64,000 nucleotides of DNA. Source: Mangrovicoccus sp. HB161399. GTDB taxonomy: Bacteria; Pseudomonadota; Alphaproteobacteria; Rhodobacterales; Rhodobacteraceae. The DNA lies in the NCBI RefSeq assembly GCF_013184745.1, contig NZ_JAATVU010000010.1, positions 62,001 to 126,000 of the forward strand. Reading direction: 5' to 3'. The position numbers were made by a program, and so were the translations under genes. How positions within the stretch are numbered: position 1 is the first letter of the stretch; each line of letters begins with the position of its first letter. Below the pieces are notes generated by a model that saw only the letters and a list, made by a program, of their open reading frames with translations, did not search any database and was not told the origin of the DNA. Below are positions 4,574 to 51,728 of the stretch, in pieces.

Positions 4574-5116
4574 GTACTTCTCCAGGCTCCATATGCCTGG
4601 CACAACCTACGCGAGCACCAGGTGACCGGGAGAAAGTCGCCGGGAATGCCTGATTCTGTCAACAATCATTGATGTCTCGCTCCATTTCCTCTCTGATCTC
4701 GGAAAACGAAAACCACCCAGGGATGCATATCCCGTTGCATTCCATGGCGTTTTCCTGCCGTAGCGGCGGGCAGTCCCCTGCGCGGAAATCCGCCCGCCGA
4801 GGGCGGCCGATGGCCGGGGAACGGCCGCGCGCGACCGGCTGCATCTCGGGTCTGTCCGCGACGGCAAGAGGCGGGCGCATCTCTGCGCCCGCTTCCGGGA
4901 GATGCCCTGGCGCGCCTTCCGCCCGTGACGGGGGCCGACCGCGTCGAGCCGTGCCATGGCCAGTTGGCGGCCCGCCCCGCAGGGACGGTTTCCGGTCGCG
5001 TCCCGCCCAGCCGGCGGGCCCGCGGCGAGGATGGTCCGCTCCGGTGCTCCCCGGACCTGCAGGTCCGCCGCGCCGTCCCTGGCGGCATCCTGCGCCTTGC
5101 CGCTGCCAGAGGAAAT
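4574..5116. other. intergenic stretch, no gene seen
   Basis: These 543 bp lie between the start of the DUF2927 gene and the terminator of the large surface-protein gene. The part near 4650-4740 is less GC-rich than the surroundings and could hold the DUF2927 promoter. The rest is GC-rich, with long open frames but no ribosome sites or recognisable protein features. Confidence 0.5.
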
Positions 5117-46434: not shown

Positions 46435-47682
46435 TCAGAGCTTGGAGCTGTCGAGCCCTTCGCGGGTGCAGAACAGGTTGTCTGCGGTCTCGCCATAGGC
46501 CGCATAGGGCAGCGGCTTGATCGGCGCCGGGTATTCGTCGACGATCTTCGACTGGCCATCCGCCTGCCATTGTCCGATGCGCGGGGTCAGCCAGCAATGC
46601 AGGTTGTCCTCGTCGATCTTCACCTCGCCGCCCGGCGCCGCATATTCCTGGCCGCGCACGCCCTCGCGGATCGCCTCCGCGGTGATGTCGCCCGAGGCCT
46701 CGACCGCCTGCTTCCACAGGAAGACCTGGAAATAGGCCGCTTCGAGCGAGTGGTAGGTCGTGGCCTGCGGATCGCCCACGAAGGCGCGGTAGCGCTCGAT
46801 GAAGCTGTGGTTCGCCGGGGTGTCGAGCGACATGAAATACGGGAAGGAGGTGTAGCTGCCGGCCGCGTATTCCGGGCCCATGGCCGCGATCTCGATCTCC
46901 GAGGTCACCGTCGCGCAGATCGGGATTTCCTCATGGCTGAGGCCCTGGTTGATGAACTCGCGGTAGAAGGAGATGATCGAGTCGCCGACCACGTTCGACA
47001 GCACCACGTCGGCGCCCGAGTCCTTGATCTTGTTGACCATCACCGCCCATTCCGAATGGCCGAGCTCGAGATATTCGTCAGCCACCCATTCGGCGCCGCC
47101 GGCCTCGATCAGGCCCTTCGAGACCTTCGCCATCTCGCGCGGATAGACGTAGTTCGAGCCGACGATGAAGACCTTCTTCTTGCCCAGCGTCTCGAGGATC
47201 CAGGGCAGGTAGTTGCCCAGCTGCTGGTTCGGCACGGCGCCCGAATAGACCACGTTCGGCGAGCATTCGAAGCCCTCGTAGTGGGTCTGGTAGAACAGCA
47301 TCGCGCCGCGGCGCTCGAAGATCGGCAGCACCGCCTTGCGCGAGGCCGAGGTGTGGCAGCCGAAGACGGTGGAGACGCGGTCGCGGATCACTAGCTTCTG
47401 CGCCTTCTCGGCATAGGTCTTGGGATCGGAGGCACCGTCCTCGACGAGGACCTCGATCGGGCGGCCCATCACGCCGCCTGCGGCATTGATCTCCTCGGCA
47501 GCCATGCGCACGCCCGCGGCCAGCATCTTCTCGACGACGGACAGGCCGCCGGTCTGGGAATAGAGCGCGCCGACCTGGATCGGCTCGCCCGCAGCCATGG
47601 CGCGGCGCAGATAGCCCGGCGCGGCCAGCGCGGCCCCGGCGGTTGCGGTGGTGGTCAGGAATTTGCGGCGGTTCAGATTCAT
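46435..47682 (-). CDS. urtA: urea/short-chain amide ABC transporter binding protein UrtA
   Basis: The product has 415 residues. The N-terminus MNLNRRKFLTTTATAG has twin arginines, and the signal ends near AMA-AG, so Tat export is likely. The mature protein is a type I periplasmic-binding fold (GALYSQTGGLSVVEKMLAAG; FGCHTSASRKAVLPIFE; ECSPNVVYSGAVPNQQ). It resembles AmiC, encoded upstream, as expected for amide/urea binders. Substrate could be urea or short amides; linkage to amiC/amiR and an amidase favours amides. Confidence 0.92.
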   Translation of the reverse strand: MNLNRRKFLTTTATAGAALAAPGYLRRAMAAGEPIQVGALYSQTGGLSVVEKMLAAGVRMAAEEINAAGGVMGRPIEVLVEDGASDPKTYAEKAQKLVIRDRVSTVFGCHTSASRKAVLPIFERRGAMLFYQTHYEGFECSPNVVYSGAVPNQQLGNYLPWILETLGKKKVFIVGSNYVYPREMAKVSKGLIEAGGAEWVADEYLELGHSEWAVMVNKIKDSGADVVLSNVVGDSIISFYREFINQGLSHEEIPICATVTSEIEIAAMGPEYAAGSYTSFPYFMSLDTPANHSFIERYRAFVGDPQATTYHSLEAAYFQVFLWKQAVEASGDITAEAIREGVRGQEYAAPGGEVKIDEDNLHCWLTPRIGQWQADGQSKIVDEYPAPIKPLPYAAYGETADNLFCTREGLDSSKL

Positions 47683-47786
47683 TTTTTCTGTCCCTGTTGG
47701 ACGCGCGCAGGGGACCGGCCCGCAGCATGCAGGAAACCGGGCGCTCGGGCGCGGAACGGATGGAGAGGAAGCCGACGACGCTGTCG

Positions 47787-47836
47787 AAACGCAAAACGCC
47801 CGCAGGGTCCCTGCGGGGGACCGGTGCGGGCGTCTT
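47787..47836 (-). promoter_or_regulatory. urtA leader with competing hairpins
   Basis: In the 276-bp gap between amiR and urtA, the minus strand can form a terminator: ACGCCCGCA (47833-47825) with TGCGGGCGT (47804-47796), followed by TTTTGC. It can instead form a shorter hairpin, CCCGCAGGG with CCCTGCGGG (47817-47799), using the same 3' bases. Such a choice is typical of transcription attenuation. AmiR, an ANTAR protein, is the natural candidate to decide it. Confidence 0.6.
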
Positions 47837-47958
47837 TGCCTATGGGGCGGCACCTTGCGGCGCCTCCGGGCTGATGGCCAATGCTGGGGACCAGACCGGA
47901 ATGGAGCGAGGCTAGCGCAAGGCCCGGCCCGAGGACAAGGCCCTTTGCCGGGCCTGCG

Positions 47959-48573
47959 TCAAGTTTTTGCGCCCTGCCCCGCAGGGGCGGCGGCGTCATG
48001 GCGTTCCACCAGTTCGCGGGCCATGATCTCGATGGCGATGCGCCGCTTCATCGCGCGGGCGCGCAGCTCGCGATGCGCTTCGTCCTCGTTCAGACCCTCG
48101 CCGGCCATCAGGATGGTCTTGGCGCGCAGCACCATCTGGTCTCCCATCACCTTGCGCTTGAAGCGCCGCGCGTCGCGGGCGAGCTGCTGGTTCTGCTTCC
48201 AGACATTGCGGGTGATCGCCAGGTTGGTGAGCAGGCCGAACGGCTTGATCGGGCGGCTCAGCACCGCCATCGCGCCGCTTTCCAGCACCAGCTGAAGCGT
48301 CGCGGGGTTCTCGTAGCCGACGATCGCCAGGATGGTCGGCGCCGGATTCGGGATCGAACGCAGGAAACCGCGCAGCTCCTCGCGGGCATGGTCCTCGATG
48401 GCGAGGATCAGGATGTCGGTGCGCTCGGGCAGGCGCTCGGGCACCGGCCAGATCAGCTGCGGCTGGCAGCCGATCCGGCGCAGGTGGTCGGTCAGCGCGG
48501 TGCCCTCCTCGTCCATCGGATGCAGCACGACGACCGAGAGATTGCGCAGTTCCTTCAGGAAGGCCGAAGACAT
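47959..48573 (-). CDS. amiR: AmiR-like ANTAR antitermination regulator
   Basis: The product has 204 residues. A receiver-like N-terminal domain without the usual phospho-acceptor context (VVVLHPMDEEGTALTDHLRR) is followed by a coiled-coil (VWKQNQQLARDARRFKRKVM) and a C-terminal ANTAR domain (AKTILMAGEGLNEDEAHRELRARAMKRR). In Pseudomonas AmiR binds leader RNA and prevents termination, unless held by AmiC. It lies 12 bp after amiC, in the same operon. Confidence 0.92.
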   Translation of the reverse strand: MSSAFLKELRNLSVVVLHPMDEEGTALTDHLRRIGCQPQLIWPVPERLPERTDILILAIEDHAREELRGFLRSIPNPAPTILAIVGYENPATLQLVLESGAMAVLSRPIKPFGLLTNLAITRNVWKQNQQLARDARRFKRKVMGDQMVLRAKTILMAGEGLNEDEAHRELRARAMKRRIAIEIMARELVERHDAAAPAGQGAKT

Positions 48574-48585
48574 GGGCGCGCCTCC

Positions 48586-49740
48586 TCAGCAGAGCCCGGG
48601 GGCGGAGGCCTCTTCCGGCTCCTCCGCGCCCGCGACGTCTATCAGGTAGGGATCGGGCGGCACGCGGCGCCGCGGATCGCTGACGATCTCGTAGGGCTTT
48701 CCCTCGCGGATCCGCGCGACCCGCGGCCACAGATGGGTGTGGTTGGTCAGCCGGTCGATCCGCACCGGCCCCTGCGGCGCCTCGTATTCCACCTCGTAGA
48801 GCGCCGGCAGCAGCCGGTCGACATGGTCGTCTCCGGCCAGCGCCAGCGCGCGCGCATAGAGATGCACCGAGAAATAGGCCGCCTCCGCCGGAGCGGTCAC
48901 CGGCAGCGCGCCGCCGGTCGCCGCGCGGAACGCCCCGGCGAATCCCTGCGCCGCGGGCGTGCCGAGCGAATCGAAGAACGGCGCGGCAATGACATGGCCA
49001 TCCGCCGTGCCCGGCTTCATCCGCATCACGTCGACCTCCGATGTCGACTGGCTGGCGATGGGAAGCGTCTCGGGGTCGTGCCCGGCGGCGCGGTAGGCCT
49101 CGTAGAAGCGCACGATTCCGTCGCCGACCAGCGTCGAGTAGATCACGTCGGGCCGGGTTTCCGCGACCAGCTCGAGAAGCCGCGCCACATGCTCGCCGCG
49201 CAGGTCGAGCGGGACATAGACCTCGTCCAGAACCTCGCCGCCCTTGGAGCGGAAGAGATCGCCGACGATCCGGTTCGATTCATAGGGATAGACGTAGTCC
49301 GAGCCGATCAGCAGCAGCCGCCGCCCGAAGGCGGCATAGAGATAGTCGACCAGCGGCACCGAATTCTGGTTGGGCGCGGCGCCGGTATAGATGCAGTGCC
49401 GCGAATACTCGAAGCCCTCGTAGAGCGTCGGATAGAACATCAACGCGTTCTGCGCCTCGACCATCGGCAGCATCGCCTTGCGCGTGCTCGACATATGCCC
49501 GCCGAATATCACCCGCACGCCGTGATCGCGGCACAATTCCAGCACCTGGTCACGGTAGCGCCGCGGCGTCGAGGCCGGATCGCGCCAGAGCGGCGCCAGC
49601 GCCCTGCCCCGCACCCCGCCCGCGGCATTGATCTCGTCAACCGCCAGCCGGACGGCGGCGACCTGCGTCTTCTCGATCATGCCGGTCACGCCGGTCTCGG
49701 ACATCACGATGCCGATCGGCCAGGTATCCTCGGTGCTCAA
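48586..49740 (-). CDS. amiC: AmiC-like amide sensor (negative regulator of AmiR)
   Basis: The product has 384 residues, like Pseudomonas AmiC (385), with no signal peptide. It has the periplasmic-binding fold used in the cytoplasm: WPIGIVMSETGVTGMIEKTQ, GHMSSTRKAMLPMVE, YPTLYEGFEYSRHCIYTGAAPNQNS, IGSDYVYPYESNRI. The start is probably the TTG at 49740 (MSTEDTWPIG); another TTG is at 49761 and there is no suitable ATG. It is thought to bind the amide and release AmiR. The leader upstream can fold into alternative structures. Confidence 0.88.
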   Translation of the reverse strand: MSTEDTWPIGIVMSETGVTGMIEKTQVAAVRLAVDEINAAGGVRGRALAPLWRDPASTPRRYRDQVLELCRDHGVRVIFGGHMSSTRKAMLPMVEAQNALMFYPTLYEGFEYSRHCIYTGAAPNQNSVPLVDYLYAAFGRRLLLIGSDYVYPYESNRIVGDLFRSKGGEVLDEVYVPLDLRGEHVARLLELVAETRPDVIYSTLVGDGIVRFYEAYRAAGHDPETLPIASQSTSEVDVMRMKPGTADGHVIAAPFFDSLGTPAAQGFAGAFRAATGGALPVTAPAEAAYFSVHLYARALALAGDDHVDRLLPALYEVEYEAPQGPVRIDRLTNHTHLWPRVARIREGKPYEIVSDPRRRVPPDPYLIDVAGAEEPEEASAPGLC

Positions 49741-49769
49741 CTCATCATCCCATCGTCGCAAACGGCAAA

Positions 49770-49834
49770 GGGCGGCCCCGTCCGGTCGCCGATGACCGGA
49801 AGAGAGCCGCCCTGCTCAAGGTTCTTCGGGCGGC
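49770..49834 (-). promoter_or_regulatory. amiC leader: alternative stems with an ANTAR-type hexaloop
   Basis: On the minus strand, segment A (GCCGCCC, 49834-49828), B (GGGCGGC, 49812-49806) and C (GCCGCCC, 49776-49770) are arranged so that B pairs with either A or C. Inside the B-C arm is a perfect hairpin CCGGTC-ATCGGC-GACCGG (49799-49782) whose six-base loop has A at position 1 and G at position 4, the consensus of ANTAR target RNAs. This suggests AmiR acts on its own operon's leader. Confidence 0.55.
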
Positions 49835-50014
49835 AGGAAAGGCGAAGCGGACGGCAATGTCAAATCCCTTCGCTGCAGGGCGGCATTTTCATTTTCGATC
49901 TTGACCGGCCCCGGGACGCGGCGCAGGATCGGCACCGTTCCGGTCCCCTGGGCAGCTGTCCCGGGCCACCGGAGGCCCGCATCCCGCGATGCGGCATCCC
50001 GGGCGCCAAGCCCC

Positions 50015-50030
50015 CTGACAGCGCTGTCAG
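50015..50030. promoter_or_regulatory. 16-bp perfect palindrome before the amidase
   Basis: CTGACAGCGCTGTCAG is fully symmetric. It lies 147 bp upstream of the amidase start, in the 437-bp divergent region. A related imperfect dyad, GGGCAGCTGTCCC, is at 49950-49962, and CCGCAT-CCCGCG-ATGCGG at 49977-49994 could form a hairpin in the rightward transcript. Possible operator of a DNA-binding regulator not encoded here. Confidence 0.45.
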
Positions 50031-50177: not shown

Positions 50178-51728
50178 ATGAGCGACACGCTCGACCAGAC
50201 CGCAGCCATCACGCCCGAGATGCTGGGCACGCTGACCATTCCCGCGATCCGCGAGGGCCTGGCCTCGGGCCGCTTCACCGCCCTCGCCCTGGCCGAAGCC
50301 GCGCTGGCCCAGGTCGCGGCGCTGAACGGCAGGTACAACGCCATCATCTTCGAGAACCCCGAGGCGCTGGACACTGCGCGCGAGATCGACCGCCGCCGCG
50401 CCGCGGGCGAGCCGCTCGGCCCGCTGGCGGGCGTGCCGGTCGTGGTCAAGGACCCGATGGACATGAAAGGCTTTCCCTCCACCGCGGGCTGGCGGCTGCT
50501 GCATGCCGCCTCTGGCGGGGTCGACCTGATGCCCGAGCGCGACAGCCCGGTCGTGGCGCGGATGCGCGCCGCCGATGCGGTGATCCTCGGCAAGACCAAT
50601 GTGCCGATCCTCAGCTGGACCGGCACCCATGCCAATGACAGCTGGGCCGGGCCGACGATCAACCCGGCCATCGAGGACCGCGCCCCGGGCGGCTCCAGCG
50701 CCGGGACGGCTGCCGCGGTCGCCACGCATATGGCCGTGGTGGGCCTCGCCGAGGAAACCGGCGGCTCGATCCAGAACCCGGCCTCGGCGCAGGATCTCGT
50801 CGGCATCAAGCCGACCATCGGGCTGGTGCCGAATGCCGGGGTCGTGCCGCTGTCGGGCAACCGCGACGTCGTCGGGCCGATCGCGCGCACGGTCGAGGAT
50901 GCGGCGCTCTGCCTCGACGTGCTGGCGGGCTTCACCACCGAGGATCCGAAGACGCTGGCCTCGATCGGGCGGATCCCGGCGGGCGGCTATGCGGCGGGGC
51001 TCTCGGCGGACGGGCTGAAGGGCAAGCGGATCGGGCTCTACGGCCCCGGCTGGCGGCCGGATGCGCTGTCGGACGAGGCGGCGGCGCTCTACGCGCGGGC
51101 GAAAGCCGAGCTCGAGGCCGCCGGTGCCATCCTCGTCGAGGATCCCTTTGCCGGGACCGAGTTCGCGACGCTGCGGCAGGTGACGCCGGGCACGCCGTTC
51201 TTCGACGGTCGCGGGCTGGAATCCATCGCCTATGACGTGACCTGCTATCTGCGCCGCCTCGGCCCGGATGCCGCGATCCGGACCTGGGCGGAATTCGTCG
51301 AGGCCACGAAATCCGAGGACCCCTTCGCTCCGGGCGCGATCCTCGGCTATCTCAACGAGCTGCCGGATTTCGTCGAAGCGATGAAATCGCCCGAGACGCC
51401 GCCGGCGCTGCCGGAATTCACCGCGCTGAAGGCCCGCTATCTGGAGCTGCTCGGCGAGGTGTTCGAGCGCCACGCGCTCGACGCGCTGTGCTATCCGCAG
51501 ATGCTGCGCGAGCTGCCGGGGCTGCATTCGGGCGACGCGATCCTCGAGACCACAGTGGGCGAGCTGAACATCGCGGGCATTCCCGGGGTAACCGTGCCCG
51601 CGGGCTACTATGCCTCCGGCGCGCCCTTCGAGCTGATCTTCCTCGGGCTGCAATGGAGCGAGGACGGGTTGATCAAGTGCGCCCATGCCTATGAGCAGGC
51701 GACCCGCCACCGCCGCCCGGCAGTCTGA
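50178..51728 (+). CDS. amidase-signature family amidase
   Basis: The product has 516 residues. The Ser-cis-Ser-Lys triad is visible: Lys91 in VVVKDPMDM, the Ser pair in GGSSAG (173-174), and the nucleophile Ser197 in ETGGSIQNPAS. The family hydrolyses amides to acid and ammonia; it is unrelated in fold to nitrilase-type AmiE. Divergent placement from amiC suggests it uses the amide sensed and imported by that operon. The ATG follows AAAGGA. A terminator follows at 51744. Confidence 0.93.
   Translation: MSDTLDQTAAITPEMLGTLTIPAIREGLASGRFTALALAEAALAQVAALNGRYNAIIFENPEALDTAREIDRRRAAGEPLGPLAGVPVVVKDPMDMKGFPSTAGWRLLHAASGGVDLMPERDSPVVARMRAADAVILGKTNVPILSWTGTHANDSWAGPTINPAIEDRAPGGSSAGTAAAVATHMAVVGLAEETGGSIQNPASAQDLVGIKPTIGLVPNAGVVPLSGNRDVVGPIARTVEDAALCLDVLAGFTTEDPKTLASIGRIPAGGYAAGLSADGLKGKRIGLYGPGWRPDALSDEAAALYARAKAELEAAGAILVEDPFAGTEFATLRQVTPGTPFFDGRGLESIAYDVTCYLRRLGPDAAIRTWAEFVEATKSEDPFAPGAILGYLNELPDFVEAMKSPETPPALPEFTALKARYLELLGEVFERHALDALCYPQMLRELPGLHSGDAILETTVGELNIAGIPGVTVPAGYYASGAPFELIFLGLQWSEDGLIKCAHAYEQATRHRRPAV

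Follow-up and report, generated by a model that had tools for sequence, protein, structure and literature searches.

The DNA analyzed here is a window of 64,000 nucleotides from Mangrovicoccus sp. HB161399. On its minus strand lie, in this order, amiC, amiR, the gene of an urtA-like binding protein, urtB, urtC and two ABC ATPase genes, and a gene for an amidase-signature enzyme diverges from amiC (Table 1). The solved structures nearest to the products of amiC and amiR are AmiC and AmiR of P. aeruginosa, respectively. Given its AmiR_N and ANTAR domains, its linked AmiC and its likeness to the solved AmiR, the latter protein can be regarded as a true AmiR, which bears out the earlier note, a first reading of this DNA, in its statement that such an ANTAR protein is encoded nearby. 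In the alignment from the PDB match, the EutV contact residues K149, E160 and M172 have their counterparts in K, E and M of the window AmiR, and the position of EutV Y164 is occupied by His both here and in P. aeruginosa AmiR. Comparison with the starts of relatives indicates that amiC likely begins at the TTG at 49740 and not at 49761; the longer open reading frame from 49761 runs into the end of the leader.

Among the loci compared, those of Poseidonocella sp. HB161398 and Mangrovicoccus ximenensis belong to the same genus as the window genome. In Rhizobium the operon runs on into a nitrilase-family hydrolase gene, and in Shinella an amidase gene lies directly upstream of amiC. An AmiC/AmiR-like group of Rhodobacterales at 30% identity (L009-L022) was left aside as a different subfamily. 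For this remoter pair (L009-L015, L017-L019, L021, L022), a GGC-A.....-GCC element with a terminator often stands upstream of the amiC-like gene, its loop having A1 but often C4/G5 instead of G4.

Table 1. Genes and proposed regulatory features of the locus, in window coordinates
Feature	Position	Strand	Details
urtA-like substrate-binding protein	46435..47682	-	start ATG 47682
Hexaloop P3, urtA leader	47773..47786	-	CGAC-AGCGTC-GTCG; directly after the terminator U-tract
Terminator, urtA leader	47798..47831	-	47831-47825/47804-47798, then TTTT 47796-47793
Hexaloop P2, urtA leader	47829..47840	-	GGC-AAAGAC-GCC; overlaps terminator 5' arm
Hairpin P1', 5' end of urtA leader	47866..47899	-	internal loop of tandem CC/CC (47889-47888, 47877-47876)
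-35 box of proposed separate urtA-like promoter	47933..47938	-	TTGTCC; -10 CTAGCC 47915-47910; in many orthologues TTGNCN-N17 immediately follows amiR
amiR	47959..48573	-	AmiR_N PF21332 8e-36, ANTAR PF03861 4e-9; PDB 1qo0_D E 1.7e-25
amiC	48586..49740	-	Peripla_BP_5; nearest PDB 1pea/1qo0/1qnl, E 1.8e-91
Weak U-tract, amiC leader	49758..49769	-	TTTGCCGTTTGC; L076 and rhizobia have strong T runs instead
Terminator hairpin, amiC leader	49770..49812	-	outer stem 49812-49803/49779-49770; inner stem 49800-49794/49787-49781; loop ATCGGC 49793-49788
ANTAR-type hexaloop, proposed AmiR site	49804..49817	-	GAGC-AGGGCG-GCTC (A1, G4); conserved before amiC
-10 box, proposed amiC promoter	49835..49840	-	TTTCCT; TTTTCT or TTGTCT at equal spacing in relatives
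-35 box, proposed amiC promoter	49858..49863	-	TTGACA; N17 spacing kept in L001, L002, L003, L076
Proposed amidase promoter	49901..49929	+	TTGACC-N17-CAGGAT; conserved in L031, L032, L111
Hairpin P1', amidase leader	49938..49974	+	CC/CC internal loop; shared with urtA leader
P3-type hexaloop, amidase leader	50015..50030	+	CTGAC-AGCGCT-GTCAG; CTGACANNGNYGTCAG occurs nowhere else in the 7.18 Mb genome
Amidase-signature enzyme	50178..51728	+	PF01425

The amiC transcript is expected to start near 49828. The GAGC-AGGGCG-GCTC hexaloop that would follow is present before amiC in all 25 loci whose AmiC has an identity of 56% or more, and it is missing from all 37 loci below that value. In those 25 loci the consensus G[A/G]GC-[A/G]GGG[C/T][A/G]-GCTC stands between the promoter and amiC, ahead of a hairpin with a T-rich tail, although the strict scan passed over the terminators of the window genus, the U-tracts of which are interrupted and the hairpins of which do fold. 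The loop has A1 (G in Shinella) and invariant G at positions 2-4, thus reading A-G-G-G compared with A[A/G]NG in the other hexaloops, and its arms are invariant save for one G-U variant. The terminator hairpin itself folds at -34.4 kcal/mol in the window. Its stem is kept despite sequence change in L002, L076, L004 and the rhizobia, and in the rhizobia and L004 a strong terminator uses the GCTC of the hexaloop as its basal arm and is followed by TTTTTT. Since the 3' arm of the hexaloop is also part of the terminator 5' arm, the two structures are mutually exclusive: when the hexaloop was forced in folding, the terminator base was lost in each of the five leaders folded. In the window the terminator exceeds the hexaloop-forced fold in stability by about 12.5 kcal/mol, and in the other leaders by 6.5-9 kcal/mol; therefore, capture would need to be co-transcriptional.

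We read this arrangement, with a good measure of confidence, as an AmiR-responsive transcription attenuator with a single hexaloop, and the same AmiR would be expected to act at the urtA and amidase leaders. The structures are conserved, consistently placed, unique and mutually exclusive, and the hairpins of the urtA and amidase leaders, described below, covary; it is on these findings that the case is built. Points against this reading are the poor U-tract of the window genome, the A-G-G-G loop, the more stable terminator and, as set out below, a hexaloop stem that hardly varies and the presence of one hexaloop where EutV needs two in vivo. The earlier note had likewise placed the transcript under the control of its own AmiR; that idea likely holds, though through the conserved pair of exclusive structures in the amiC leader and not through the structure that it had drawn.

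Alternatively, the amiC leader might hold an ordinary or constitutive attenuator or terminator, acting for example against read-through into amiC, with GAGC-AGGG kept for some other reason and the action of AmiR confined to the urtA and amidase leaders. No covariation was seen in the hexaloop stem when the amiC leaders were aligned, as the stem hardly varies. Moreover, no second A1/G4 hexaloop is conserved upstream of the first in these leaders, where about 10 nt separate the expected start from the hairpin. Both observations favor a constitutive terminator, as does the absence of the leader from amiC orthologues beyond one clade; for those orthologues AmiR presumably works via the leader after amiR alone. 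Yet the terminator of no lineage needs the 5' arm GAGC, which is nevertheless kept, as is the loop G4, in Rhodobacterales, Rhizobiaceae and another family. In addition, the element sits after a conserved promoter, and no other copy of the motif in any genome searched has a terminator after it, so that we regard the constitutive alternative as unlikely. Other genomic matches to GAGCRGGGNRGCTC were considered as targets and discarded as lacking a terminator. Neither a P3-like nor a P1-like A1/G4 hexaloop was found in any of the amiC leaders, and an Rfam search at a relaxed threshold gave no match at the leader. The amiC leader of Aminobacter (L128, ~4729-4746), which lies among allantoin and urea genes, carries a different A1/G4 hexaloop, GGAAAC-AGTGGC-GTTTCC, without the GAGC element.

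In the order of transcription, the GAGC-AGGGCG-GCTC hexaloop comes 11 bases before the ATCGGC loop that the earlier note had taken for the ANTAR target. The stem closing ATCGGC does exist (TCCGGTC/GACCGGA, 7 bp), but the loop is the variable tip of the terminator, replaced by ATCCAT in L002, by CGCGTT in L076 and, in rhizobia and Shinella, by a tetraloop (GAAA or GCAA); within the window alone, six stems of at least 6 bp close an A..G.. hexaloop. One could still imagine a dual target limited to the window genome and L003, with GAGC-AGGGCG-GCTC as the first and CCGGTC-ATCGGC-GACCGG as the second hexaloop, given that both loops have A1 and G4 in L001 and L003 and are separated by a gap of 4 nt. 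Apart from the sequence changes in relatives, however, the second stem is within the terminator and compatible with it, and binding there would thus not stop termination, which makes such a target very improbable.

The note had further drawn a switch of three segments on the minus strand, A (GCCGCCC, 49834-49828), B (GGGCGGC, 49812-49806) and C (GCCGCCC, 49776-49770), with A-B as antiterminator, B-C as terminator and AmiR on ATCGGC. The segments are where it placed them, and B does pair with C, forming the base of the long terminator-like hairpin. Arm A fared worse, being CGGCGCG in L002, CGGGGCG in L003 and GAGGGCT in L076. It sits between the -10 hexamer and the expected start, and this start, as judged from the promoter, comes close to the one downstream of 49,834 that the note itself had named as fatal to its proposal. 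Triples of a 7-mer, its complement and the same 7-mer in this geometry number 11 per strand against a Markov expectation of 4.7, and all-GC triples 3 per strand against 2.4. Exactly complementary as its three 7-mers are, the switch with its A/B arm and ATCGGC loop is rejected on comparison with close relatives, and we give it next to no credence, since A is not conserved and, in this GC-rich window, triplets of this kind come close to chance frequency.

The earlier note had put amiC, amiR and the urt genes together under the amiC leader. This view is incomplete, as the urt genes appear to have a promoter of their own and a more elaborate leader (47938-47773), which as a whole folds with z = -4.5. 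A covariance model of P2, terminator and P3 found leaders after amiR on which it had not been trained, in Methylopila (L061, 2e-7), Hansschlegelia (L056, 6e-6) and Bosea (L058, 1.4e-4), with weaker matches in several other loci. The urtA leaders of remoter orthologues and the acetamidase operons of beta- and gamma-proteobacteria carry a further hexaloop, P1, usually with a pyrimidine mismatch below the closing C-G pair. P1 has A1 and G4 in 15 of 15 cases, although the invariance of G4 in P1 and P3 is partly by construction, their members having been chosen by a scan that demanded G4 and A or G at position 1; the covariation and the fixed placement do not follow from this choice. The P1 pattern is the published two-hexaloop pattern (PMC3369931), and in the window clade P1' takes the place of P1.

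P3 follows the U-tract by about 10-25 nt in the loci listed and occurs in the majority of the lineages examined; the null expectation is about 4% per 60 nt. Its stem covaries, with four of five pairs changed on both sides and a covariation score reached in none of 500 shuffles. Its arms are dyadic, and P3 was therefore also considered as a DNA operator; however, the sense-strand G4 is fixed in 18 of 18 sequences whereas the mirror position 3 varies, which disfavors a symmetric operator. P1' forms the beginning of the urtA leader in Rhizobium and Shinella as well as in the window clade and the L004 family. Eight of its nine pairs changed on both sides in an alignment hand-trimmed of its apical loops before counting, and here too no shuffle of 500 reached the score. 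The UCC and CCA of its internal loop (U-CC / CC-A) are invariant in 10 sequences.

P1' also opens the amidase leader, both in the window clade and in Shinella. The orthologous amidase leaders have CTGACAATGCCGTCAG in L111 and CTGACAAGGACGTCAG in Shinella L123. Whole-genome searches for CTGACANNGNYGTCAG found in Rhizobium nothing but the urtA leader, and in Shinella both the urtA and the amidase leaders. Because this search finds amidase leaders in the window genome and Shinella, the amidase is likely a third AmiR target. Extra matches in G002 were set aside as lying in coding-like sequence, one of them within a photolyase-like ORF. The P3-type hexaloop of the amidase leader has no obvious U-tract nearby. 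As candidate AmiR targets, the urtA and amidase leaders appear stronger than the amiC leader.

On the attenuator reading, RNA polymerase would start near 49828 and make the GAGC-AGGGCG-GCTC hexaloop first. Without bound protein, the hexaloop 3' arm (GCTC and part of the loop) would be captured by GGGGCCGCCC to form the terminator before amiC. When amide is present, AmiC would free AmiR, which would then keep the hexaloop closed and block the terminator base, so that amiC-amiR is transcribed. AmiR thus probably antiterminates its own amiC-amiR transcript through one hexaloop, and this read-through would constitute a positive loop on sensor and regulator. The same AmiR would act at the separate urtA leader, with P2 over the terminator and P3 beyond it, and at the divergent amidase leader via P3. 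Presumed start site, AmiR binding, termination and induction are the predicted parts of this scheme, in which the regulator, transporter and amidase genes are probably controlled in concert by a single RNA-binding protein. Our best reading is that the amiC attenuator of one AmiC/AmiR clade is an addition to an older AmiR target before the operon that follows amiR.

If these assignments are correct, three leaders would share one ANTAR protein and differ in their hairpins, with P2 before amiC, P1', P2 and P3 before urtA, and P1' and P3 before the amidase gene, so that the contribution of each element would become separable in a single organism. A bolder and rather doubtful extension is that alphaproteobacterial AmiR uses an extended RNA code, made up of a hexaloop over the terminator, a third, A1/G4 hexaloop after the U-tract (also in the amidase leader, with no obvious terminator there) and the CC/CC hairpin as a second hairpin for recognition. 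The post-terminator hexaloop might then let the protein re-bind or be retained once termination has been decided, with effects on, for example, Rho, translation or mRNA stability. In the main texts of open-access papers, we found no description of a post-terminator role for ANTAR proteins, nor of a separate amiC leader, P3 or P1'. ANTAR matches before urea transporters were reported by Ramesh et al., and a target before urt genes is therefore not new in kind. Current ANTAR search models would overlook the covarying post-terminator hexaloop and the invariant CC/CC hairpin.

The published rule for ANTAR targets calls for a hexaloop with A1 and G4 that extends over the 5' arm of the terminator (PMC3369931). 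Compared with the dual-hexaloop target (Ramesh 2012), such a hexaloop lies over the terminator arm at 49817-49804 in the amiC leader and at 47840-47829 in the urtA leader, and an exclusive intrinsic terminator follows directly, its U-tract in the amiC leader being weak in the window and strong in relatives; a second upstream hexaloop is seen in the remoter urtA leaders and not in the amiC leader. EutV needs two hexaloops in vivo (PMC3369931), and the minimal ANTAR motif has been described as a single hexaloop (PMC8934654). The amiC leader appears to have the sequence features of a single-hexaloop site with G4 (Walshe 2022) and, if AmiC-AmiR indeed possesses such an attenuator of its own, would be a natural case on which to test whether one hexaloop suffices, as proposed in 2022. 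As here, the E. faecalis eutP leader recognized by EutV has an A1/G4 hexaloop with a 3' arm common to the terminator, but the amiC leader differs in having no second A1/G4 hexaloop upstream. The urtA leader has a further hexaloop after the terminator, which is absent from the eut model and the published two-hairpin model. The acetamidase operon leaders of Paraburkholderia pBN1 and Klebsiella plasmids are AmiR-linked and have the P1 hexaloop and a terminator, the Paraburkholderia leader also having P2 (GGC-ACAGAA-GCC). However, a single leader heads transporter, amidase, amiC and amiR there, without P3 and without an amiC leader.

The closest parallel is the P. aeruginosa amiE leader, which shares with our locus AmiC and AmiR orthologous by sequence, an A1/G4 hexaloop over the terminator 5' arm and an amide-related operon. 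The contrast with Pseudomonas proposed earlier, in which only there the target precedes the amidase gene amiE, needs revision: the amidase here probably has an AmiR-type target ahead of it as in Pseudomonas, and amiC and amiR lie within P. aeruginosa amiEBCRS, so that read-through reaches the regulators there too (PMC3795266). Whereas Pseudomonas carries a single two-hexaloop leader ahead of amiE (PMC3369931), amiC-amiR would here have its own single-hexaloop leader beside separate transporter and amidase leaders. Judged from sequence, it is this separate, dedicated amiC leader that is the true difference from P. aeruginosa.
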